Source of the DNA: Pseudokineococcus lusitanus
GTDB lineage: Bacteria > Actinomycetota > Actinomycetes > Actinomycetales > Quadrisphaeraceae
Assembly (NCBI RefSeq): GCF_003751265.1
Contig: NZ_RJKN01000003.1
Coordinates: 372,001 to 436,000, forward strand
Direction: 5' to 3'
Length of the DNA stretch: 64,000 bases
Shown piece after piece: positions 36,818 through 46,318 of this stretch. The notes under the pieces are model-generated. The model ran no database searches. It was not told the origin of the DNA and saw only the letters and a program-made list of their open reading frames with translations. The position numbers and the translations under genes are program-made. Each line of letters starts with the position of its first letter. Position 1 is the first letter of the stretch.

Positions 36818-38995
36818 TCAGCTGCGGCCGACGTCCGACATCTGCGCCGCGGCGACGATCCGCTGCTTCTCGGCGCGCGTGATGGTGCGCGAGGCGACGA
36901 GGTCGGTCGTCACCGTCCGGACGTGGCGCTGGAAGGCCTGGTAGCTGGCGTACCGGGCGCCCTCGGCGACGAGGTCGTTGACCGTGCAGCCGTCGCCCCG
37001 GTCGACGTTGACGACCGTGCTGTCGTGACCACCGATGACCACCGTCGGGCGGGTGTCGGAGGACGGGCACATGTCGCGCCGCAGCTCCATGACCGCGAAG
37101 GTCACCGAGCCGGCGGCGGAGACGTTGCCCTTCCGGTCCGTCGCCCGGTGGGCGAACGTGTGGTTGCCCGGCGCCACGACGACGACGGGGGCCACGTACG
37201 GCTGCCACGCGCCGCCGTCGACGCTGTACTCGACGGACAGGACGCCGGAGCCGGTGTCGGTCGCCTGGAGCGACACCGTGGCGCGGCCCATGTGGCGGCC
37301 GGCCCGGTCCTTGGAGCCGACGACCGTGGCGGTCACCGTGGGCGCCACCGTGTCCTCGGGGCCGTCGGCGACGACGGAGAACGTCACCGAGCCCTCCTCG
37401 GAGACGTTGCCGGCGGCGTCCGTGCCGCGGTAGCGCAGCGTCGTGGCGCCGAGCTCGGTGACGACGACCGGGCCGTCGTAGACCATCCAGTGGCCGGCGT
37501 GCAGCGAGTACTCGACGGTGACCTCGCCCGGGCCCTCGTCGACGCCCGTGAGCGTGACGGAGGCGGCGCCGACGTAGGCGCCGCGCGCGTCGCGGTCGCC
37601 CAGCACCTCGGCGAGGACGACGGGCGCGGTGGTGTCCTGCTCGCCGCCGGCGACGACGGTGAACGTGACCGAGCCCTCCTCCGAGACGTTGCCCGCCTCG
37701 TCCGTGGCGCGGAAGACCATCGTGTGCTGGCCGACCTCGTCGACGACGACGGCCTCGGTGTAGGCCTGGTACTCGCCGCCGTCGAGGGCGTACTCGACGG
37801 ACGCGACGCCGGAGCCGGCGTCCTCGGCCGTGAGGCTCACCGTGGCGGCGCCGACGTAGGAGCCCTCGGCGTCCTGCTCGCCCGCGACCTCGGCGGAGAC
37901 CGTCGGGGCGACGGTGTCCTCGCCCGTGGGCTCGGCGACGACGACGGTGACCTCGCCGGCGGCGGAGGTGTTCCCGGCTCCGTCGGTGGCGCGGTAGGCG
38001 ACGGTGTGGGACCCGGGCGAGGAGACGACGAGGGCCTCCTCGTACGGGGTGAAGGGTCCGCCGTCGAGGGAGTACTCGATGACGGCGACGCCCGACCCCT
38101 CGTCGGTCGCGGTGAGGGTGACGGTGGCGGAGCCGACGTAGGCGCCGGCGCCGTCCTGCTGGCCGGTGACCTCGGCGGTCACGGTCGGCGGGGTGGTGTC
38201 CTCGCCGACGGGGGCCTCGACCACGGTGAAGGTGGTCGTGCCGACCTCGGAGACGTTCCCGGCGACGTCCGTCGCGCGGTACGTCATCGTGTGCTCGCCG
38301 ACCTCGTCGACGACGACCGGGCCGGAGTAGGCCTGGTACTCGCCGCCGTCGAGCGCGTACTCGACGGACGCGACGCCGGAGCCGGTGTCCTCGGCGGTGA
38401 GCGCGACCGACGCGGAGCCCAGGTAGGCGCCGTCGGCGTCCGTCTCGCCGGTGACCTCCGCGGTCACGGTCGGGGCGGTGGTGTCCTCCTCGCCGCCGCC
38501 GCCGCCGGTGACGACGAGCTCGCCGACCATGGAGCCGTGGCCCGGGATGGCGCAGAAGTAGCGGTAGGTGCCCGGCGTGAGGGTGACCTCGACCTCGTGG
38601 CGGCCGCCCTGGGCGTCCAGGGGGTTGGCGAGGATGTCGACGGTGACGTCGTGGTTGTAGCCCGGCGTGCTCGTGTCGAAGGTCAGCGTGTGGCTCATGG
38701 CGATGGTGTTGCCCGTCGCCCGGCTGTTCTCGAACACGATGGTCGCCGCGCCGGCCGTGGCCGTGGCCGGCGCCGTCTTGTACTTGGTGACGCTGTTGTC
38801 GCCGGTCCACGTGAGGACCTGGTCGGCCGCCGCGGCGACGTCGGCCGCGCGCGCGGGGGCGCCCACGGCGGGCCCGGGCACGAGCCACAGGGCCAGCAGC
38901 GCGGCGAGCGCGACGGCCAGGTAGCGGCCGGGGCCAGGGCGGGAGGGGGCGGGGGACGGTGTCCGGCGCAGGGCCGGTGGGACGGGGGCTCGCAT
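36818..38995 (-). CDS. Exported cupredoxin with five Ig-like repeats and a CTVNDL C-terminal module
   Basis: 725 residues. Signal peptide about 1-50 (LAVALAALLALWLVPGPAVG). A plastocyanin/azurin-like domain at about 58-163 has an apparent type 1 copper site: His102 in AMSHTLTFD, then Cys148, His153 and Met156 in YFCAIPGHGSMVGELVV. Five repeats of 94-95 residues (171-642) each end near FRATDxAGNVSEEGSVTF, resembling OmpL47/Ig-like modules. Residues 643-725 form a module shared with the ThuA protein upstream. Likely an extracellular electron-transfer protein on a wall-spanning stalk; that is inference. ATG has AGGAG 9 bases upstream. A hairpin separates it from the gene before. Confidence 0.85.
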   Translation of the reverse strand: MRAPVPPALRRTPSPAPSRPGPGRYLAVALAALLALWLVPGPAVGAPARAADVAAAADQVLTWTGDNSVTKYKTAPATATAGAATIVFENSRATGNTIAMSHTLTFDTSTPGYNHDVTVDILANPLDAQGGRHEVEVTLTPGTYRYFCAIPGHGSMVGELVVTGGGGGEEDTTAPTVTAEVTGETDADGAYLGSASVALTAEDTGSGVASVEYALDGGEYQAYSGPVVVDEVGEHTMTYRATDVAGNVSEVGTTTFTVVEAPVGEDTTPPTVTAEVTGQQDGAGAYVGSATVTLTATDEGSGVAVIEYSLDGGPFTPYEEALVVSSPGSHTVAYRATDGAGNTSAAGEVTVVVAEPTGEDTVAPTVSAEVAGEQDAEGSYVGAATVSLTAEDAGSGVASVEYALDGGEYQAYTEAVVVDEVGQHTMVFRATDEAGNVSEEGSVTFTVVAGGEQDTTAPVVLAEVLGDRDARGAYVGAASVTLTGVDEGPGEVTVEYSLHAGHWMVYDGPVVVTELGATTLRYRGTDAAGNVSEEGSVTFSVVADGPEDTVAPTVTATVVGSKDRAGRHMGRATVSLQATDTGSGVLSVEYSVDGGAWQPYVAPVVVVAPGNHTFAHRATDRKGNVSAAGSVTFAVMELRRDMCPSSDTRPTVVIGGHDSTVVNVDRGDGCTVNDLVAEGARYASYQAFQRHVRTVTTDLVASRTITRAEKQRIVAAAQMSDVGRS
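37070..38485 (-). repeat. Five tandem Ig-like coding repeats
   Basis: Five copies of about 282 bases (94 or 95 codons) in residues 171-265, 266-359, 360-453, 454-547 and 548-642 of the cupredoxin protein. Copies 1 and 3 are nearly identical over long stretches of DNA (for example around 38330-38400 and 37740-37810), unlike the others. Confidence 0.85.
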
Positions 38996-39055
38996 GGCTC
39001 AGCACTCCTGGCGCGTCGTCGCGGTCGGGCGGAGGGGCGGTCGGGCAGGGCGGGG

Positions 39056-39101
39056 GCCGGGGCCCCGGGCGACGCGCGGTGGCGTCGCCCGGGGCCCCGG
39101 C
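39056..39101 (-). terminator. Hairpin between the ThuA protein gene and the cupredoxin gene
   Basis: Perfect 20-bp arms (39056-39075 and 39082-39101), 6-base loop, just after the stop at 39109. It would end or partly block transcription before the cupredoxin gene, which must then have read-through or its own promoter. Confidence 0.75.
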
Positions 39102-39108
39102 GGGGGCG

Positions 39109-42100
39109 TCAGAGGTCGCGCACCCGGACCTCGCGGAACTCCACGAGGTCACCCGTCCCGTGGTTCTGCAGGCCGACGAAGCCCTCGGCGAACTGCCGCA
39201 GGTCCGTGGGCGGGTCGCCGGCGCGGGAGGACTGCTTGCCCGGCGACGCGTCGAACTCGTTGATCACCACGCCGTTGCGGACGATCGTGTACTGCTGCCC
39301 GACGACGCGGATCTCGTAGGTGTTCCACTCGCCCTTGGGCGTCGGACGGGCCGCGGCCAGGCCGACGGGGTCGAAGTTGTAGACCGACCCCGTCTTCTGC
39401 GGCTCGCCCGTGGGGCCGTCGTAGATCTGGATCTCGTGGCCGCAGTAGATGGCCACCCACGCCGGGGAGTCGACGGCCGCGCCCTGGCGGCCGCACTCCT
39501 CCCGCTCCTCGAGCGGCTGCTCGGGGTCCGGGAAGCGGGTGAAGACGCCGGTGTTGGCGTACGCCCCGGGCGCCGAGACGTCCCGGAACTTCAGCGTCAT
39601 CGAGAAGTCGCCCAGCTGCTCGGCGTGGTACCAGAGCATGCCCAGGCCGCCCTGCGAGCGCAGGGAGCCGTCGGGCTGGAGGACGAAGCGTCCGCCCGGC
39701 GCCTGGGTCCACCCGCGGAGGGACTCGGCGGTCCCGTCGAAGATGGTCCGGTAGCCGCCGGCCCGCACGCCGATCTGGGAGCGGGCCGCCGCGTTGACGA
39801 CCGCGGTGACCTCCTTGCCGGTGAGGACGCCGTCCTCGCGGAGCTGACGCGTCACGGCCCGGACGTGGCGCAGGTACTCCTGGTGGGAGCCCCACTCGCT
39901 GTCGTCGAGGATGAGGTCGTTCACCGTGCAGCCGCCGAGGTCGTCGTTGGCCACGCCGGAGTCGACGTCGCCGGAGAAGACCGTCTCGCGGTCGTCCGGC
40001 ACCGTGCAGGAGATGCTGACCGGCACGGTCGTCGTGGCCTTCTCGCCGTCGGCGTAGGTGACCGTCAGCGTCGCCGTGTGGTCGGCGACCCGGGCGTAGG
40101 TGTGACGGGGGTTCGCCTCGGTCGACGAGGTGCCGTCGCCGAAGTCCCAGCGGTAGGAGACGCCGCCGGAGCGGGCGCCGGTGAAGGCGACCTCGAGCGG
40201 GGTGCCCTGGACGTTGGCCGCCGTCGCCGCCGGCGCCGGGGTGGCCGGGCCGCCGTCGTAGGTGACCCGCAGGAGCTTCTGGTTCGGGTCGAGGCTGAAG
40301 AAGCCGCCGGCGTAGTCGAGCAGGTACAGCGCGCCGTCGGGGCCGAACTTGGCGTCCATCCAGCTCTGGAGGCCGGTGTCGCCACCGCCGCCGCGGACGA
40401 TCTGGCGCAGGTCCTCGGCGAAGGCCGGGGCGCCCTGGGTCGGCACCTTGCGCGGGTCGACGGTCACGGCCACGCGGTTGTTCGCGTTGGACTGGTCACC
40501 GATGAACCACTTGCCCTCCCAGTACGAGGGCCACGCCACGTCGCTGTCGGGGTCCACCTGGGACTGGCGGAAGGTGGGGCCGGACATGACGGCCTGGCCG
40601 CCGCCGCGCAGCCACGGCAGCGTGTAGGTGGCGTCCTCGTCCTCGTAGGTCGGGATGCCGCTGCCGTCCTCGCGCTCGGGGAAGACGGGCCCGCCACCGC
40701 TGGGCGAGTACCAGATCATGTTGTCCCGGGCGTCCGGGATGTCCACGAGGCCGGTGTTGCGCGGCGAGGTGTTCTGCAGGTCGTCGCAGTCGTACCAGCC
40801 GGTGAGGACGTCCGCGTCGGTGTTGCTGCGGTCGCGGTACGGCTGGCGGTTGCCCATGCAGAAGGGCCACCCCTGGTTGCCGGCGCTCGTGAGGATCGTG
40901 GCCGTCTCGTACTTGGCCGGGCCGAGCTCCGGGTCCGGCAGGCCGGCGTCGGGGCCGACCCACGCGGCGGTCAGCCAGTCGGTGTCCGCGTCGATCTGCA
41001 GGCGCGAGATGTTGCGCACGCCCATGACGTAGATCTCGGGGCGGGTCTTGTCGTCCGCGTCGCGGGCCTCGCTGAAGAGGTTGCCGTCGGGGATCGTGTA
41101 GGAGCCGTCGTCCTCGGGGTGGATCCGCAGGATCTTGCCGTTGAGGTCGTTGGTGTTGCCGGAGGTGCGACGGGCGTCCTGGAAGCTGATGCCCGCGAAC
41201 TCCTGCTCCCAGTTGTTGCCCGAGTAGCCCTGCGAGCCGCCGGAGGAGTTGCTGTCGCCGGAGCCGACGTAGAGGTTGCCGTCGTCGTCGAAGGCCATGC
41301 CGCCGCCGGCGTGGCAGCAGCTGTGGACCTGGGTCTCCCACTCCAGCAGGTCGACCCGCGAGGACTGGTCGATGCTCGGGCCCGACGGGTCGTAGGTGAA
41401 GCGCGAGACGGTGCGCATGCCGACGCGCCGCTCGGTGTCCACCGACTCGTGCGGCATCCAGTAGACGTAGAGGAAGTTGTTCTCGGCGAAGTCGGGGTCC
41501 GGCACGATGCCGAGGAGCCCCTCCTCGTTCTTCACGAGCTCGCTGCCGCTGCCGCGGTTGCCCATGACCTCGAGGGTCGTCAGCAGCGTGACGTCACCCG
41601 TCTCCGGGTCCCACTCGTGGATGGTGCCGCAGCCGAGGCCGACGTCCGGGTCGTCCCAGGAGACGACGGGGCCGCTCGGGCAGGCGGCCTTGCCGACGTA
41701 GAACGCGGTGCCGTCGGGGGCCATGGTGAGGCCGTGCGGCTCGCCGATCTGGTCGAGCTGCCCGGGGGCGTTCTGCGCCGTCAGCCGCTCGGTCGTGTAG
41801 TTGGCGGCGATGGTCGCCTGGCAGTCGCCCCGGACCATGCCGGTCGTCCACTGCAGGGCGCCCAGCAGGTGCTCGCGGAAGCCCGCCTCGGACCAGCTCG
41901 CGGGCGTGCCGCCCATGCCGGTGAAGAAGGAGCGGCCGCCGTCGTAGTCGCGGCACCACGACACGGGCTGGAAGGGGCTCTCCGTCGCCGGCGCGTCCGC
42001 CGTCGGGCGCAGCTGCGCGACCGTGTGGACCTCGCCGGTCGGGTTGGTCGACCAGTCGAGCCAGCGGTCCTCGCGGGTGATCGACAGGGGCAGGTCCTCG

Positions 42101-43104
42101 GTGGACGGGTGCTGGCGGTCGACGACGTCGACCGTGCCGCGCGTCAGCGGGACCTCGTCCTCGACGGGCGTCACGGACTCGCCGTCGAAGAGCTCGATCT
42201 CGGCGAGCTGGGTGAGGCCGCCGCTGCCGTTGGCCGAGACGACGAGCCGGTAGGACGTGTACGCCTCGCCCGGCTCGGCGATCTCGAAGTCCCTGACCTG
42301 GAAGCGCTCCGGGAAGGTCTGGTCCGTGCGGCTGTCGACGTCGACCCACGTCTGGCCGTCGTTGCTGCCCTGCAGGGTCCAGTTCCGCGGGTCGCGCTCG
42401 GCCGAGTCGTTGGCGGAGGTGAGCGAGTACTGCGCGAGCACGAGCGGCTCGGCGAGCTGCATCGTCAGCGTCGCCGTCGGCTCGAAGGCGAGCCACTTGG
42501 TGCCCGGGTCGCCGTCGGCCAGGTTGGCCGCGACCTCGTTGGGCGCGTTCTCCGCCGTCGCGGTGACGGAGGTGATCTCCGCGGGGACGGGGCGGGCGCC
42601 GGCGATGCGCGTGCCGACGAGGCCCGTGAACCACTGCGACGTCTCCTGGGCGCGCGCGGCGTCGCGGACGCCGAGGAAGCCGCCGCCGTCCTGGACGTAG
42701 GCCTGCAGCGCGGCCTCCTGGGCGCCGGAGAGGTCGGCCCCCTCGGCGGACAGGAAGACGACGCCCCGGTACTCGTCGAGGACGTCGTCCGTGAAGACGG
42801 CCGGGTCCGAGGACGTCTCGACCGTGAAGCCGTTCTGGGCACCGAGCTCGGCGACGGCGCGCGTGGCCGCGAGGACGGGGTCGTCCTGAGCGTCGGGGGC
42901 GCCGTGGAAGGCGAGGACGCGGACGTCGTCCGCCGCGGCGGCCGCCGCCGTCGCCTGCAGGGGCGCCACGAGCGGCCGGGCCATGGTCGGCACGGCGGAC
43001 ATGCCGACGACGAGCGAGGCGCCCGCGACGGTCAGCGCCAGGGGGCGCAGCCGGTCGCGTCGCCTCCGTCCCGCGGCGGTGGTGGGCGATGGGTGTGGTC
43101 GCAC
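39109..43104 (-). CDS. Exported multidomain protein: ThuA, F5/8C, PQQ-sugar-dehydrogenase-like propeller, PKD, CTVNDL module, DUF1080
   Basis: 1331 residues. Signal peptide about 1-58 with an Arg cluster (RRRRDRLRPLALTVAG). ThuA-like domain at about 60-175 and 312-425, interrupted by a discoidin-type domain (about 176-310; LTQLAEIELFDGE). A beta-propeller related to soluble glucose/sorbosone dehydrogenase follows (about 435-905; EPHGLTMAPDG, HSCCHAGGGMAFDDDGNLY, GNQGWPFCMGN). Then a PKD domain (about 960-1030; YRWDFGDGTSS), the CTVNDL module (1033-1114) and a DUF1080/3-keto-disaccharide hydrolase-like domain (1115-1331; GEWNTYEIRVVGQQYTIVRNG). Likely acts outside the cell on sugars or glycosides. 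GTG 43104 has GAAGGAG 7 bases upstream. Domain identities are strong; activity is unproven. Confidence 0.88.
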   Translation of the reverse strand: MRPHPSPTTAAGRRRRDRLRPLALTVAGASLVVGMSAVPTMARPLVAPLQATAAAAAADDVRVLAFHGAPDAQDDPVLAATRAVAELGAQNGFTVETSSDPAVFTDDVLDEYRGVVFLSAEGADLSGAQEAALQAYVQDGGGFLGVRDAARAQETSQWFTGLVGTRIAGARPVPAEITSVTATAENAPNEVAANLADGDPGTKWLAFEPTATLTMQLAEPLVLAQYSLTSANDSAERDPRNWTLQGSNDGQTWVDVDSRTDQTFPERFQVRDFEIAEPGEAYTSYRLVVSANGSGGLTQLAEIELFDGESVTPVEDEVPLTRGTVDVVDRQHPSTEDLPLSITREDRWLDWSTNPTGEVHTVAQLRPTADAPATESPFQPVSWCRDYDGGRSFFTGMGGTPASWSEAGFREHLLGALQWTTGMVRGDCQATIAANYTTERLTAQNAPGQLDQIGEPHGLTMAPDGTAFYVGKAACPSGPVVSWDDPDVGLGCGTIHEWDPETGDVTLLTTLEVMGNRGSGSELVKNEEGLLGIVPDPDFAENNFLYVYWMPHESVDTERRVGMRTVSRFTYDPSGPSIDQSSRVDLLEWETQVHSCCHAGGGMAFDDDGNLYVGSGDSNSSGGSQGYSGNNWEQEFAGISFQDARRTSGNTNDLNGKILRIHPEDDGSYTIPDGNLFSEARDADDKTRPEIYVMGVRNISRLQIDADTDWLTAAWVGPDAGLPDPELGPAKYETATILTSAGNQGWPFCMGNRQPYRDRSNTDADVLTGWYDCDDLQNTSPRNTGLVDIPDARDNMIWYSPSGGGPVFPEREDGSGIPTYEDEDATYTLPWLRGGGQAVMSGPTFRQSQVDPDSDVAWPSYWEGKWFIGDQSNANNRVAVTVDPRKVPTQGAPAFAEDLRQIVRGGGGDTGLQSWMDAKFGPDGALYLLDYAGGFFSLDPNQKLLRVTYDGGPATPAPAATAANVQGTPLEVAFTGARSGGVSYRWDFGDGTSSTEANPRHTYARVADHTATLTVTYADGEKATTTVPVSISCTVPDDRETVFSGDVDSGVANDDLGGCTVNDLILDDSEWGSHQEYLRHVRAVTRQLREDGVLTGKEVTAVVNAAARSQIGVRAGGYRTIFDGTAESLRGWTQAPGGRFVLQPDGSLRSQGGLGMLWYHAEQLGDFSMTLKFRDVSAPGAYANTGVFTRFPDPEQPLEEREECGRQGAAVDSPAWVAIYCGHEIQIYDGPTGEPQKTGSVYNFDPVGLAAARPTPKGEWNTYEIRVVGQQYTIVRNGVVINEFDASPGKQSSRAGDPPTDLRQFAEGFVGLQNHGTGDLVEFREVRVRDL

Positions 43105-43154
43105 GTGTCGGCTCCTTCGTCGGGCGTGCAGGGCTGGTCGGGCGGGGAGGCCCG

Positions 43155-43185
43155 CGCCCGCCCGGGCTGGTGGCCCGGGCGGGCG
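43155..43185 (-). terminator. Hairpin after the laccase gene
   Basis: Perfect 13-bp arms (43155-43167 and 43173-43185), 5-base loop, about 20 bases after the laccase stop and before the next gene on the same strand. Confidence 0.65.
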
Positions 43186-43205
43186 GGGCGGGGTGCGGGG
43201 GCCGG

Positions 43206-44240
43206 TCAGCCGGCGGCGTGCGCGGCGTGCCCGGCGTGGCCGCCGGCGTGGTGCTCGGCGAACCGGTCGAGGGACGCCTGCGCGCCGGGGGGCATCGACC
43301 CGTCGGCGTTGCGGACGAGGAAGACGCCGGACATCCCGCCGTCCGAGTGGAACTGGACGTGGCAGTGGTACATCCACGCGCCCGGGCCGACGCCGGCGCC
43401 GGCGACGACCTGGAAGCCGAAGCTGTCGCCCGGGTTGAGGTCGCGGTTGTCGACCACCTGCGTGGCGTCGTCCCGGCCGGTGATGAGACCGGTCCGGTTG
43501 AGGGCCCACCGGTGCGCGTGGAGGTGGAAGGTGTGGAAGGAGTCGCCGTGGCCGACGCAGACGAACTCGACGCGCTCGCCGAGGCGGGCCTCGAACATCG
43601 GGGTGTCCGGCGCGAACTTGTTGTTGATGGACACGTCGGTGAAGAAGACGGTGAAGGTCTTGTCCGGGACGACGTCGCCGACCCGGCGCACGACGAGCGC
43701 GCCGTAGAGGCCGGCGCGCACGCCGGCCGTCCCGTGGTCTCCCTGGTAGGCGTGGTCGTGGTAGTGCCAGTAGCCCGCGCTGCCCGGCATCCAGATGCCG
43801 CGGTCGCGGTACGGCGCCTGCGTCTTCCACACGTACGTGCGGGTCTCGCCCGGCTCGTTGAAGGAGTCGTTGAAGGGGCTGCCGTCGGAGTCGACGTCGT
43901 AGTTGACGCCGTGCGGGTGGATGGACAGCCGCTCGTCGGTGGTGTTGACGAGCTCGATCTCGAGGGTGTCGCCCTCCCACATCTCCAGGAGCGGCCCGGG
44001 GATGGTCGGCTGCCCCTGGACGAGGCCGTAGCCCACCTGGCCGTCGGCCATGCGCTCGGCGAACATCCGGATGCGCCGGGTGGAGCCGGCGGCGGCGCGC
44101 GCGCTCGTGGCGGTCCCCCGGCCCAGGACGGCCGCGGTCACCGGCGAGGCGACGGCGACGGCGCCCCCGGCGACGCCGGCGACGACCGCGCGGCGGGACA
44201 GCGCCGGGCGCGTCCCTCGGGGGGTGGTCGAGTCGTTCAT
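43206..44240 (-). CDS. Two-domain multicopper oxidase (small laccase) with Tat signal
   Basis: 344 residues. Tat signal: SRRAVVAGVAGGAVAVASPV (Arg16-Arg17). Copper motifs of a small laccase are present in order: IHPHGVNYD, WHYHDHAYQGDH, FHTFHLHAHRWALN and the type 1/trinuclear block YHCHVQFHSDGGMSG with the axial Met. Size and two-domain layout fit the trimeric SLAC enzymes, which oxidise phenols or other electron donors with O2. The C-terminal end is His-rich (HHAGGHAGHAAHAAG), possibly another metal site. ATG 44240 has AGG 5 bases upstream. It heads a same-strand set with the ThuA/propeller and cupredoxin genes, so a shared extracellular redox task is plausible. Confidence 0.92.
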   Translation of the reverse strand: MNDSTTPRGTRPALSRRAVVAGVAGGAVAVASPVTAAVLGRGTATSARAAAGSTRRIRMFAERMADGQVGYGLVQGQPTIPGPLLEMWEGDTLEIELVNTTDERLSIHPHGVNYDVDSDGSPFNDSFNEPGETRTYVWKTQAPYRDRGIWMPGSAGYWHYHDHAYQGDHGTAGVRAGLYGALVVRRVGDVVPDKTFTVFFTDVSINNKFAPDTPMFEARLGERVEFVCVGHGDSFHTFHLHAHRWALNRTGLITGRDDATQVVDNRDLNPGDSFGFQVVAGAGVGPGAWMYHCHVQFHSDGGMSGVFLVRNADGSMPPGAQASLDRFAEHHAGGHAGHAAHAAG

Positions 44241-44776
44241 GTCTACCTGGGTCTCCCTGCTCGGTCGGCCACCGCCGAGGGTCCGGGGCAGCGCGAGGTC
44301 ACCGGACCGCGCTGCGGCCTCGGTGCGGTGGTGGTGCGCGGGTCGGCCGCGGGGGCGGCCGGTCGGGTGCCTGTCTCGGGGGGTCGCGCTCCGTCGCACG
44401 GCTCCGGTCGTCCCGTCCGCACCCGGCCGGCGGTGGCTCCGTCGGCGAGGTGTGTCGGCTGGTCTGGTCCGGTGGTCTGGTCGGACCCCGAGGACCCGTC
44501 GGTGCGCACGGCGCCGTGCGCTCACCGACCGTCCCCGACGGTCACCCACCCGCAGGTCATCCCGGGGTGATGCGGACATCTCATCCGGCTGGGGAACTTC
44601 TGTCAACAGTGTGTGAAAAGTCACCGAGTCGACCGGGTGGACCAGGGGTCCACCCGGTCGACGATCCACGCCGGGCCCTCCCGGACCGACGCCGACCGAC
44701 CCTCGCCAGGGGCGACGTCGTCGCGCACGATGGGCTCGGCCGGTCGGCCGTGGGGCCGCCGGCGGAGGAGGTCGTC
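44241..44776. other. 536-base divergent regulatory region between laccase and phoD genes
   Basis: No credible reading frame. It contains a stretch of lower GC near 44590-44625 (CTTCTGTCAACAG and GTGTGTGAAAAG), repeated CTGGTC motifs at 44459-44480, and a perfect inverted repeat at 44628-44662. The promoters of both exported enzymes must lie here, but I cannot fix their -10 sites. It is the longest gene-free stretch in the window. Confidence 0.65.
44628..44662. promoter_or_regulatory. Perfect inverted repeat upstream of the phoD-like gene
   Basis: 16-bp arms (44628-44643 and 44647-44662) with loop AGG. It is not after any gene end, so it is more likely an operator or a 5' leader hairpin, about 115 bases before GTG 44777. 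Confidence 0.5.
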
Positions 44777-46318
44777 GTGCCGGACGGACGCGGGCTGGAC
44801 CGTCGGACCCTGCTGCAGCTCGCCGGGGTGTCCGCCGGGGCGCTCGCCCTCGGCATCGCGGCGCCGGAGCGTGCGCTCGGGGCGACGCGGGCGCCCGACG
44901 GCGCCTTCGCCCTCGGCGTCGCCTCCGGCGCCCCCACGCCGGAGGGCGTCGTGCTGTGGACGCGGCTGGCGCCCGAGCCGCTCGCGGCCGACGGGCTCGG
45001 CGGCATGCCGCAGCAGCCCACCGCCGTGCAGTGGGAGGTGGCCGACGACGAGCTCTTCCGCCGGGTCGTGCTCCGCGGGACCGTCGTCGCGCTGCCCGAG
45101 CTGGCCCACGCGGTCCACCCGCAGGTCCGCGGGCTGCAGCCGGGGCGGCGGTACTTCTACCGCTTCCGGGTCGGCACGCAGACGAGCCCGGTGGGGCGCA
45201 CCCGCACGGCCCCGGCGCCGGGCACCACGCCCGCGCGGCTGGTGCTGGCGACGGCCTCCTGCCAGTCCTGGGCGGCGGGGCACTACAGCGCCCACCGGCA
45301 CCTCGCCGCCGCCGACGTCGACCTCGTCGTCTTCCTCGGCGACTACGTCTACGAGCGCGGGCTGCGCGACGCCGACGTCGCCCGCCGGGGGGCCGCGCCG
45401 CTGGGGCCCGAGCACGCGGCCGAGGCGGCGACGCTGGCGCAGTACCGGCTGCGGTACGGGCTGTACAAGAGCGACCCCCACCTGCGGGCGGCCCACGCCT
45501 CGGCCCCCTGGCTCGTCACCTGGGACGACCACGAGGTGCAGGACGACTACGCCGGCGACCGCTCGGCCGCGGGCGTCCCCGCGGACGCCTTCCTCCTGCG
45601 GCGCGCGGCGGCCTACCGGGCCCACTACGAGCACCTGCCCCTGCCGCCGTCCGCCCTCCCCGTGGGTCCGCGCGGGACGGTGCAGGGACGCACCGACTGG
45701 GGCCGGCTGGCCCGCCTCGTCGTGCTCGACACGCGGCAGCACCGCGCCCCTGCCGCCACGACGCCCGCCGAGCTGGCCGACCCGTCGCGGTCGGTGCTGG
45801 GACGGCGGCAGGAGGCGTGGTTCCACCAGTCGCTGCGGTCGTCGTCGGCGGCGTGGGACGTCGTCGCCAGCAGCGTCGTGGTCCGCCCCGTCTCGCCCCG
45901 GGAGACCGACCAGTGGGACGGCTACCCCGTCGCGCGGCGTCGGCTGCTGCGCCACCTCGCCCGGTCCGCCGACCCCGTCCTCGTGTCCGGCGACATCCAC
46001 CGCCACCACGCGGCGGAGGTGCCCTCCGACCCGGACGACCCCACGTCGCCGCCCGCCGCCGTGGAGCTCGTGACCTCGTCGATCGCCTCGGGACGCGACG
46101 GGGGCGTCGACGACGGCCCCCGGGTGCCGTGGATGGCCGCCCCCTACGCCCGGTTCTGGGACGGCCGGCGCGGCTACGTGCGGCTGGACGTCACGCCGCG
46201 GGAGACGACGTCGTCCTTCGTCGTCGTCCCGTACGTCGAGGCGGACGACCGCGCGGAGGGCCGGGTCGTCGCCCGCTTCGTCACCGAGCGGGGGCGCCAC
46301 CGGCTGGAGCGGGCCTGA
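44777..46318 (+). CDS. phoD: PhoD-family alkaline phosphatase/phosphodiesterase with Tat signal
   Basis: 513 residues. Tat signal at the N terminus (DRRTLLQLAGVSAGALALG, Arg9-Arg10). An N-terminal PhoD_N beta-sandwich (about 35-125) is followed by the metallophosphatase domain: VVFLGDYVYERG (Asp, Tyr), TWDDHEVQDDYAG (Asp-Asp-His) and VSGDIHRHHAAEV (Asp, His, His), as in PhoD enzymes using iron and calcium. It would release phosphate from phosphodiesters or teichoic acids outside the cell. GTG 44777 has GGAGGAGG 5 bases upstream. The Tat route links it to tatB above. Divergent from the laccase gene. Confidence 0.9.
   Translation: MPDGRGLDRRTLLQLAGVSAGALALGIAAPERALGATRAPDGAFALGVASGAPTPEGVVLWTRLAPEPLAADGLGGMPQQPTAVQWEVADDELFRRVVLRGTVVALPELAHAVHPQVRGLQPGRRYFYRFRVGTQTSPVGRTRTAPAPGTTPARLVLATASCQSWAAGHYSAHRHLAAADVDLVVFLGDYVYERGLRDADVARRGAAPLGPEHAAEAATLAQYRLRYGLYKSDPHLRAAHASAPWLVTWDDHEVQDDYAGDRSAAGVPADAFLLRRAAAYRAHYEHLPLPPSALPVGPRGTVQGRTDWGRLARLVVLDTRQHRAPAATTPAELADPSRSVLGRRQEAWFHQSLRSSSAAWDVVASSVVVRPVSPRETDQWDGYPVARRRLLRHLARSADPVLVSGDIHRHHAAEVPSDPDDPTSPPAAVELVTSSIASGRDGGVDDGPRVPWMAAPYARFWDGRRGYVRLDVTPRETTSSFVVVPYVEADDRAEGRVVARFVTERGRHRLERA

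Follow-up and report, generated by a model that had tools for sequence, protein, structure and literature searches.

A small laccase gene of actinobacteria adjoins genes for two predicted secreted partners, a modular propeller protein and a cupredoxin protein

A small laccase gene of Pseudokineococcus lusitanus was found to adjoin genes for the same two predicted exported proteins that accompany its relatives in genomes ranging from Isoptericola and Georgenia to Streptomyces. The three genes (LAC, PROP, and CUP) are encoded on the minus strand of the window, i.e., the whole 64,000-nucleotide stretch that was analyzed (NZ_RJKN01000003.1, positions 372,001 to 436,000). Tentatively, we read the set as one extracellular, O2-linked unit that may oxidize and cleave glycosides, with LAC as its terminal oxidase. 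The observations behind this reading are the co-inheritance of the genes as neighbors, the movement of a module between the polypeptides, and copper sites of LAC and CUP that are intact in sequence. Two-domain small laccases, which form a trimer with an interfacial trinuclear site, have been much studied and are widely used. The physiological function of most characterized bacterial laccases is nevertheless described as unknown in the available text of one report (PMC3527528).

Gene set and domain composition

LAC (344 aa; 43206..44240, minus strand; ATG start) is a predicted exported two-domain small laccase with Pfam Cu-oxidase_3 and Cu-oxidase_2 domains. Its best PDB match was the small laccase 3t9w (E of 3.4e-119). 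The His, Cys, and Met positions that we take to be copper binding were intact in the window, and each was kept in 67 to 70 of 70 relatives; departures occurred in five proteins, two of which had five changes each. PROP (1331 aa; 39109..43104, minus strand) starts with GTG, with AAGGAG read upstream of the start codon, and CUP (725 aa; 36818..38995, minus strand) starts with ATG. The gaps between the three genes measured 101 and 113 bases.

All domain coordinates given here likewise refer to the minus strand. PROP, predicted to be exported, comprised a ThuA domain (residues 62-208; 42481..42921; PF06283, 165.9 bits versus a cutoff of 33.4), an F5/8 type C (discoidin-like) domain (residues 180-274; 42283..42567; PF00754), a GSDH/HHIP-type propeller (residues ~425-957; 40234..41832; Pfam GSDH and structural model), a PKD domain (residues 961-1027; 40024..40224; Pfam PKD_4), a small domain termed Cdom (residues 1037-1114; 39763..39996; sequence comparison), and a DUF1080 domain, also known as 3keto-disac_hyd or 3-keto-disaccharide hydrolase (residues 1117-1329; 39118..39756; PF06439, 106.6 bits versus a cutoff of 26.8). 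Judging by family membership, this last domain may act on 3-keto sugars. CUP, also predicted to be exported, carried a cupredoxin domain (residues 67-162; 38510..38797; Pfam Copper-bind, 26.9 bits versus a cutoff of 21.2), five OmpL47-type (Ig-like) repeats detected by profile searches, and a second copy of Cdom (residues 647-725; 36821..37057; sequence comparison; model mean pLDDT of 95.2). Export signals were read by eye, presumably a twin-arginine-like signal in LAC (SRRAVVAG) and Sec-like signals in PROP and CUP. The earlier note had placed three consecutive exported proteins here, and this was borne out, with domains above the curated Pfam cutoffs.

Cdom, a C-terminal-type domain of ~78 residues, was common to PROP and CUP at 43-44% identity; this sharing was absent from the earlier note. 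Searches of 57 members against Pfam gave no consistent family (Abhydrolase_10 in 15/57, best E of 0.0031; FIMAH, weighed as a possible identity, in 2/57, best E of 0.12), and the best E against PDB sequences was 0.62. The best Foldseek E was 0.67 and the best VIA match had a Z of 4.5 (6g70; rmsd of 2.8, 52 aligned), which does not imply a new fold. Seven of 10 other Cdom carriers scanned had DUF1080, GH127, or GH43 domains.

Linkage of the three genes across genomes

Across 394 genomes sampled class-wide, 49 yielded LAC and 48 yielded PROP, every one of the 48 PROP genomes also having LAC; PROP was found in 0 of the 345 LAC-free genomes (E <= 1e-150). These searches scored five candidates per genome for LAC and two (the best) for PROP, so more distant or further copies may have been missed. 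When two genome samples were combined, LAC was present at 57/57 PROP loci and CUP at 56/57, the sole exception stopping at a contig edge, while the next commonest neighbor family was seen at 14/57. The conserved linkage supposed in the earlier note thus proved to be far tighter than supposed, and a purely local gene set was rejected on account of its wide conservation. Starting from the laccase, all three genes were present at 56 of 64 loci examined; since the family matches also exceed curated cutoffs, we reject a chance set. Among named loci, 76/80 had all three genes, in five gene orders. A plasmid search gave one close locus; the annotated Streptomyces locus reads as a multicopper oxidase, a ThuA protein, and a family 16 glycoside hydrolase.

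The DUF1080 domain was carried by PROP at 32 of the 57 PROP loci and by CUP at 24 (architecture counts over loci exclude Cdom), a case of a module moving between neighboring proteins with the parts list unchanged. One natural protein fuses the GSDH propeller, DUF1080, cupredoxin, and Cdom. Beside it, gene starts resembling a Gfo/Idh-type dehydrogenase and transport permeases were noticed by eye. LAC without partners was found in four genomes (G230, G272, G311 [C15], and G323 [C3]), and LAC with CUP but without PROP in three (G311, with CUP at the contig end, G379, and G428). Because the latter loci exist, LAC and CUP may do without the propeller.

Copper ligands of the cupredoxin

By its profile and its His, Cys, His, and Met ligands, the CUP cupredoxin is of the plastocyanin/azurin type, and the predicted ligands (H102, C148, H153, and M156) were invariant in 59/59 domains. 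Such a domain might instead serve copper handling: CUP would take up extracellular copper and load LAC, or LAC would be a cuprous oxidase, with PROP as an accessory wall protein. We regard this as improbable. Copper chaperoning has no need for DUF1080, F5/8, and propeller modules, and SCO6710, the inferred CUP, was lower, not higher, in culture from copper-amended spores according to PMC6414726. Two CsoR-type palindromes gave one match in 28 loci, which lay inside LAC of locus L075, and we dropped the idea that the gap between LAC and PROP contains a CsoR operator.

The propeller and its cofactor

The propeller model of PROP was of moderate confidence (mean pLDDT of 71). At that confidence, VIA comparison matched it to 3a9g (Z of 32.1, rmsd of 2.8, 334 aligned), to the PQQ-bound Streptomyces coelicolor Adh 3das (Z of 28.7, rmsd of 2.9, 320 aligned), to 7pgm (HHIP, a propeller without enzyme annotation; Z of 28.1, rmsd of 3.5, 332 aligned), and to 1cq1 (Z of 25.6, rmsd of 3.9, 382 aligned). 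As modeled, the propeller is a six-bladed GSDH fold.

The earlier note had proposed a chain in which a sugar-dehydrogenase-like propeller with a possible PQQ site passes electrons through the cupredoxin to the laccase, and one part of such a PQQ site stood: equivalents of soluble glucose dehydrogenase (sGDH) H144, R228, and N229 (H598, R697, and N698) were kept in 57/57 PROPs, and those of G247 and P248 were invariant at the 57 loci. The remainder did not. The Q231 equivalent was S or A in 57/57; the R406 equivalent (position 914) was N in 27, S in 25, G in 2, and Q, H, and A in 1 each, with R in 0/57; and the R408 equivalent (position 916) was M in 57/57. We take Arg406 and Arg408 of sGDH to bind the PQQ carboxylates. 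Lys377 had no reliable placement, the candidate position 872 being variable. PqqC was absent from the genome of the window and was found in only 5/60 LAC genomes. A host does not strictly require PQQ synthesis, as uptake of PQQ is possible, and scavenging can be envisaged here because the genome of the window, while devoid of PqqC, still encodes a canonical GSDH that has an RLRD motif (this paralogue had gaps at several alignment columns, and the motif was read in separate alignments). Together with the 3das-like fold and the retained residues, scavenging speaks for the quinoprotein version, which we nonetheless consider very unlikely given the replaced residues and the scarcity of PqqC; a classical PQQ site was rejected on these grounds. 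With the PQQ-site arginines lost and PqqC mostly absent, the putative dehydrogenase step would probably rely on a cofactor other than PQQ bound as in sGDH.

The propeller contained an HSCCHAGGG motif (H594, C596, C597, and H598). The conserved histidines H457, H496, H594, and H662 were absent from the four GSDH paralogues that this genome encodes; for two of these (C7 and C5), trimming left gaps at 457 and 496, and the missing His was read by eye. The ThuA domain had lost its FRHxS and SHP histidine motifs in the window and in six other PROPs aligned; two ThuA paralogues in the same genome retained them. A degenerate ThuA, the many binding-type modules (F5/8, PKD, and Ig repeats), and the comparable structural match to HHIP would suit PROP and CUP as surface or matrix adhesion proteins on plant polymers without a redox partnership. 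The invariant type 1 copper ligands and the conserved CCH/His positions of the propeller favor chemistry, however, and such a scaffold seems to us hardly probable.

Proposed function

Under the tentative reading of a glycoside-oxidizing unit, the propeller of PROP would oxidize a hydroxyl group on a glycoside or glycan, at C3 if the known DUF1080 pathways are a guide, electrons would pass to the CUP cupredoxin and on to the laccase, and LAC would reduce O2 to water. DUF1080 would then cleave the resulting keto-glycoside, and the other modules (Cdom, Ig repeats, F5/8, PKD, and degenerate ThuA) may keep the components attached to one another or to the substrate. Against this reading stand the lost PQQ arginines and the scarcity of PqqC, the LAC loci that lack PROP, and published laccase mutants, which point to lignin (PMC5675413). 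The chain from sugar through cupredoxin and laccase to O2, as first proposed, thus remains plausible, with added genetic support, though not by way of a classical PQQ site.

The set might alternatively be a lignin or phenol unit, in which LAC oxidizes phenols, CUP shuttles electrons between LAC and a bulky insoluble substrate, and PROP with its DUF1080 binds or trims the carbohydrate of lignin-carbohydrate complexes, the propeller being no dehydrogenase. Laccase-negative Streptomyces ipomoeae solubilized about one fifth of the wild-type straw lignin fraction, according to the available text of PMC5675413, and the partial loss of PQQ residues, the LAC-CUP loci without PROP, and the presence of Cdom on GH127 and GH43 proteins fit this alternative as well. 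It does not readily explain the finding of PROP in 0/345 LAC-free genomes at E <= 1e-150 or the invariant propeller histidines, and we hold it to be rather unlikely.

Since the same two predicted secreted partners nearly always adjoin it in numerous soil bacteria, the natural job of the small laccase is suggested to be the transfer of electrons from extracellular sugars or plant material to O2. A bolder generalization, which we consider doubtful, would see SLAC-type laccases not as free-standing phenol oxidases but as terminal oxidases that serve a dedicated secreted complex for oxidative deglycosylation. Its propeller, with a new redox site other than PQQ (HxCCH plus the conserved H457, H496, H594, and H662), would oxidize glycans and pass the electrons to O2 through a tethered cupredoxin. 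The near-obligate partner set names candidate genes for studying the role of the small laccase, testable in Streptomyces, and adds a short conserved domain that no Pfam family clearly matches as well as a possible new cofactor site in a propeller.

Comparison with known systems

No paper describing the gene set was among the listed matches of a literature search that mostly does not cover subscription journals. The nearest pathway is the periplasmic 3-ketoglycoside route of Caulobacter and others, with LacABC and a DUF1080 hydrolase; the available text reports that a gene close to that of a periplasmic lactose 3-dehydrogenase encodes a DUF1080 protein bearing a putative signal peptide (PMC9007349). 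Both systems couple DUF1080 to an extracytoplasmic dehydrogenase or a candidate for one. The PROP set differs from the pathway as described there in having a propeller for the dehydrogenase, a cupredoxin and laccase as the electron exit, and DUF1080 fused to PROP or CUP. With sGDH and aldose sugar dehydrogenase (1cq1, 3das, and 2g8s), the propeller shares the fold, the catalytic His, Arg-Asn, and Gly-Pro; unlike them, PROP is without the PQQ arginines and has the HxCCH motif and extra modules. The PVC-type heme-binding CxxCH family (TIGR02604) gave a weak profile match (E of 0.013; 14.9 bits versus a cutoff of 122.2), which we treat as a lead; that family has heme, whereas the LAC-PROP-CUP set has a cupredoxin as its candidate electron carrier. 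LAC resembles SLAC of Streptomyces (SCO6712; PDB 3cg8) and 3t9w in its full-length match and copper ligands; SCO6711 and SCO6710, which neighbor SCO6712, are the putative PROP and CUP there. In the available text of its papers, SLAC is treated as an enzyme by itself, whereas LAC is read here together with PROP and CUP.

Co-inheritance of a small laccase, a propeller protein and a cupredoxin protein

In the window, three consecutive minus-strand genes arranged head to tail encode exported proteins, exactly at the coordinates assigned in the earlier note: a full-length two-domain small laccase (LAC, 43206-44240), a protein with ThuA, F5/8C, GSDH propeller, PKD and DUF1080 domains (PROP, 39109-43104), and a protein in which a plastocyanin-type domain is combined with five OmpL47 repeats (CUP, 36818-38995). 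Upstream of and divergent from LAC, a gene at 44750-46318 was judged by eye to be PhoD-like, with a twin-arginine-like start.

In an order sample of 297 genomes (E ≤ 1e-40), LAC was found in 12, and the whole set in 10 of these; the other two (G230 and G272, of one genus) carry LAC alone. For a class sample of 394 genomes, the five best LAC candidates (E ≤ 1e-60) and the two best PROP candidates (E ≤ 1e-150) per genome were scored. LAC was present in 49 genomes and PROP in 48, all within the LAC group, leaving G311 as the sole LAC genome outside the PROP list. Joining both samples gave 60 LAC and 57 PROP genomes. All 57 PROP loci contained LAC and 56 contained CUP, which answers the earlier note's question of co-occurrence across genomes in the affirmative; the locus without CUP (G449) lies where its contig ends. 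Among 64 laccase loci examined, 56 were complete, and the remainder comprised four with a lone LAC, three with a laccase pair plus CUP, and G449. Loci L160, L161 and L168, from one family, have a laccase pair and CUP and no PROP, the CUP of L161 being at a contig end. When all called genes of the 57 PROP loci were clustered, only LAC and a joint PROP/CUP group were represented in every locus, the next family reaching 14/57. These counts are not independent events because the sampled genomes are related, but the PROP genomes are spread over eight families of the sample. In a biased list of named loci (the best 80 of 581 PROP matches), all three genes occurred in 76, in five orders and orientations. 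The four exceptions lacked a CUP match (L198), had PROP only (L207), started at a contig end (L215) or lacked a LAC match (L218).

Module shuffling, fusion and a domain common to PROP and CUP

Searching the P. lusitanus genome revealed that CUP and PROP have a C-terminal domain of about 78 residues in common, here termed Cdom. By eye, a third copy is N-terminal in a GH43-like protein encoded on a different contig of this genome (L027 6627-7910, contig C6), and a similar protein of genome G043 is Pfam GH43. Where the 80 named loci (best 80 of 581 PROP matches) encode these proteins on the plus strand, Cdom was present in 80/80 PROP and 61/69 CUP proteins; order-wide, 27/297 genomes carry it. 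Ten other carriers that were scanned comprised two DUF1080, three GH127, one GH43, two BNR_4 and one beta-helix protein and one fusion. Cdom is confidently modeled (pLDDT 95.2) as three helices and two short strands; sequence and structure comparison with the PDB gave no convincing relative, and Pfam no consistent family.

ThuA, F5/8, propeller and DUF1080 are all on PROP in 32 loci. In 24 others, PROP is a ThuA-propeller protein and DUF1080 is on CUP instead; these represent every PROP genome of one sample family, judged Streptomyces-like from a Streptomyces fungicidicus locus annotated as multicopper oxidase, ThuA protein and family 16 glycoside hydrolase. The long PROP also occurs in named Streptomyces loci (L212 and L223; best 80 of 581 PROP matches). 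The fusion, in genome G137, is a 1514-residue protein (L062 7746-12290) combining GSDH, DUF1349-like, DUF1080 (two matched stretches), cupredoxin and Cdom; its gene lies apart from that genome's own cluster, beside a Gfo/Idh-type dehydrogenase-like gene and transport permeases (by eye). Shuffling and fusion are classical signs of parts working together.

In four Streptomyces-like loci (L153 9800-9900, on the opposite strand; L154 7730-7815; L155 8590-8665; L172 5310-5385), we noted by eye, in the gap between the divergent LAC and PROP genes, a common block, GGACAAAGT ... CATAGC ... TTGGCGA ... TAGCTTC, perhaps a common two-way promoter or operator.

Copper ligands and the propeller site

Each conserved position is retained by between 67 and 70 of the 70 LAC proteins; five proteins show departures. 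In the tandem laccases of G357 (L165 5668-7134) and G372 (L166 6206-7672), one copy is changed at H239S, H241K, M290E, C293T and M303V and is possibly a non-catalytic laccase partner. One laccase of a pair in G428 has H292L and M303L, and single changes occur in G511 (H159Q) and G556 (H159N). The aligned cupredoxin ligands H102, C148, H153 and M156 are present in 59/59 CUP domains.

The propeller model (mean pLDDT 71) matched PQQ sugar dehydrogenase 3a9g (Z 32.1, rmsd 2.8, 334 aligned), 3das (Z 28.7, rmsd 2.9, 320 aligned) and 1cq1 (Z 25.6, rmsd 3.9, 382 aligned); HHIP was likewise matched (Z 28.1, rmsd 3.5, 332 aligned). The possible PQQ site of the earlier note was retained in part. Using the residues of soluble glucose dehydrogenase that we take to form this site, the equivalents of H144, R228, N229, G247 and P248 are kept in 57/57 PROPs, but that of Q231 is S or A, that of R406 is never R (N in 27, S in 25, five others) and that of R408 is M in all 57. 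In PROP numbering, H457, H496, H662, C596 and C597 are invariant and H594 is kept in 56/57; the four P. lusitanus GSDH paralogues share C596, C597 and H598 but lack the four extra histidines of PROP (two paralogues judged by eye at 457 and 496). PqqC was detected in 5/60 LAC genomes, and a search of P. lusitanus did not find it. Scavenged PQQ would still be compatible with this, because the genome has a canonical GSDH close to PQQ-bound 3das.

In an alignment of nine sequences, the FRHxS and SHP motifs present in the two paralogues are missing from the ThuA domain of PROP. Another giant P. lusitanus ThuA-GSDH protein (L009 4403-12153, contig C7) has intact ThuA histidine motifs, and the gene that follows resembles, by eye, those of TIM-barrel sugar isomerases/epimerases.

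Proposed electron chain and comparison with known systems

Alongside the observed linkage, common domain, fusion and intact copper ligands, we infer a chain, in its substrate and every electron step, from glycoside through propeller, cupredoxin and laccase to O2, since the propeller is the sole dehydrogenase-like part, the cupredoxin the sole carrier and the laccase the sole oxidase. The propeller would oxidize a glycoside, electrons would pass to the cupredoxin of CUP and on to LAC, and LAC would deliver them to O2. DUF1080, which requires a keto-glycoside, would perform the cleavage step. PMC9007349 describes, in Caulobacter, a lactose 3-dehydrogenase of the periplasm and, encoded nearby, a DUF1080 protein that has a putative signal peptide and whose proposed activity is the cleavage of 3'-ketolactose.

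The main rival to glycoside oxidation is a lignin unit, because laccase-less Streptomyces ipomoeae solubilized far less lignin from straw (excerpt of PMC5675413). For the gene set as such, copper control is suggested by SCO6710, described as "supposedly repressed by CsoR" in an excerpt of PMC6414726; however, the lower SCO6710 transcript in cultures grown from copper-amended spores, reported in the same excerpt, counts against this hint.

A full-text literature search gave no description of the LAC-PROP-CUP set among the matches listed. Within those matches, the combination, its near-obligate small-laccase linkage and Cdom appear undescribed; the component parts are known families.
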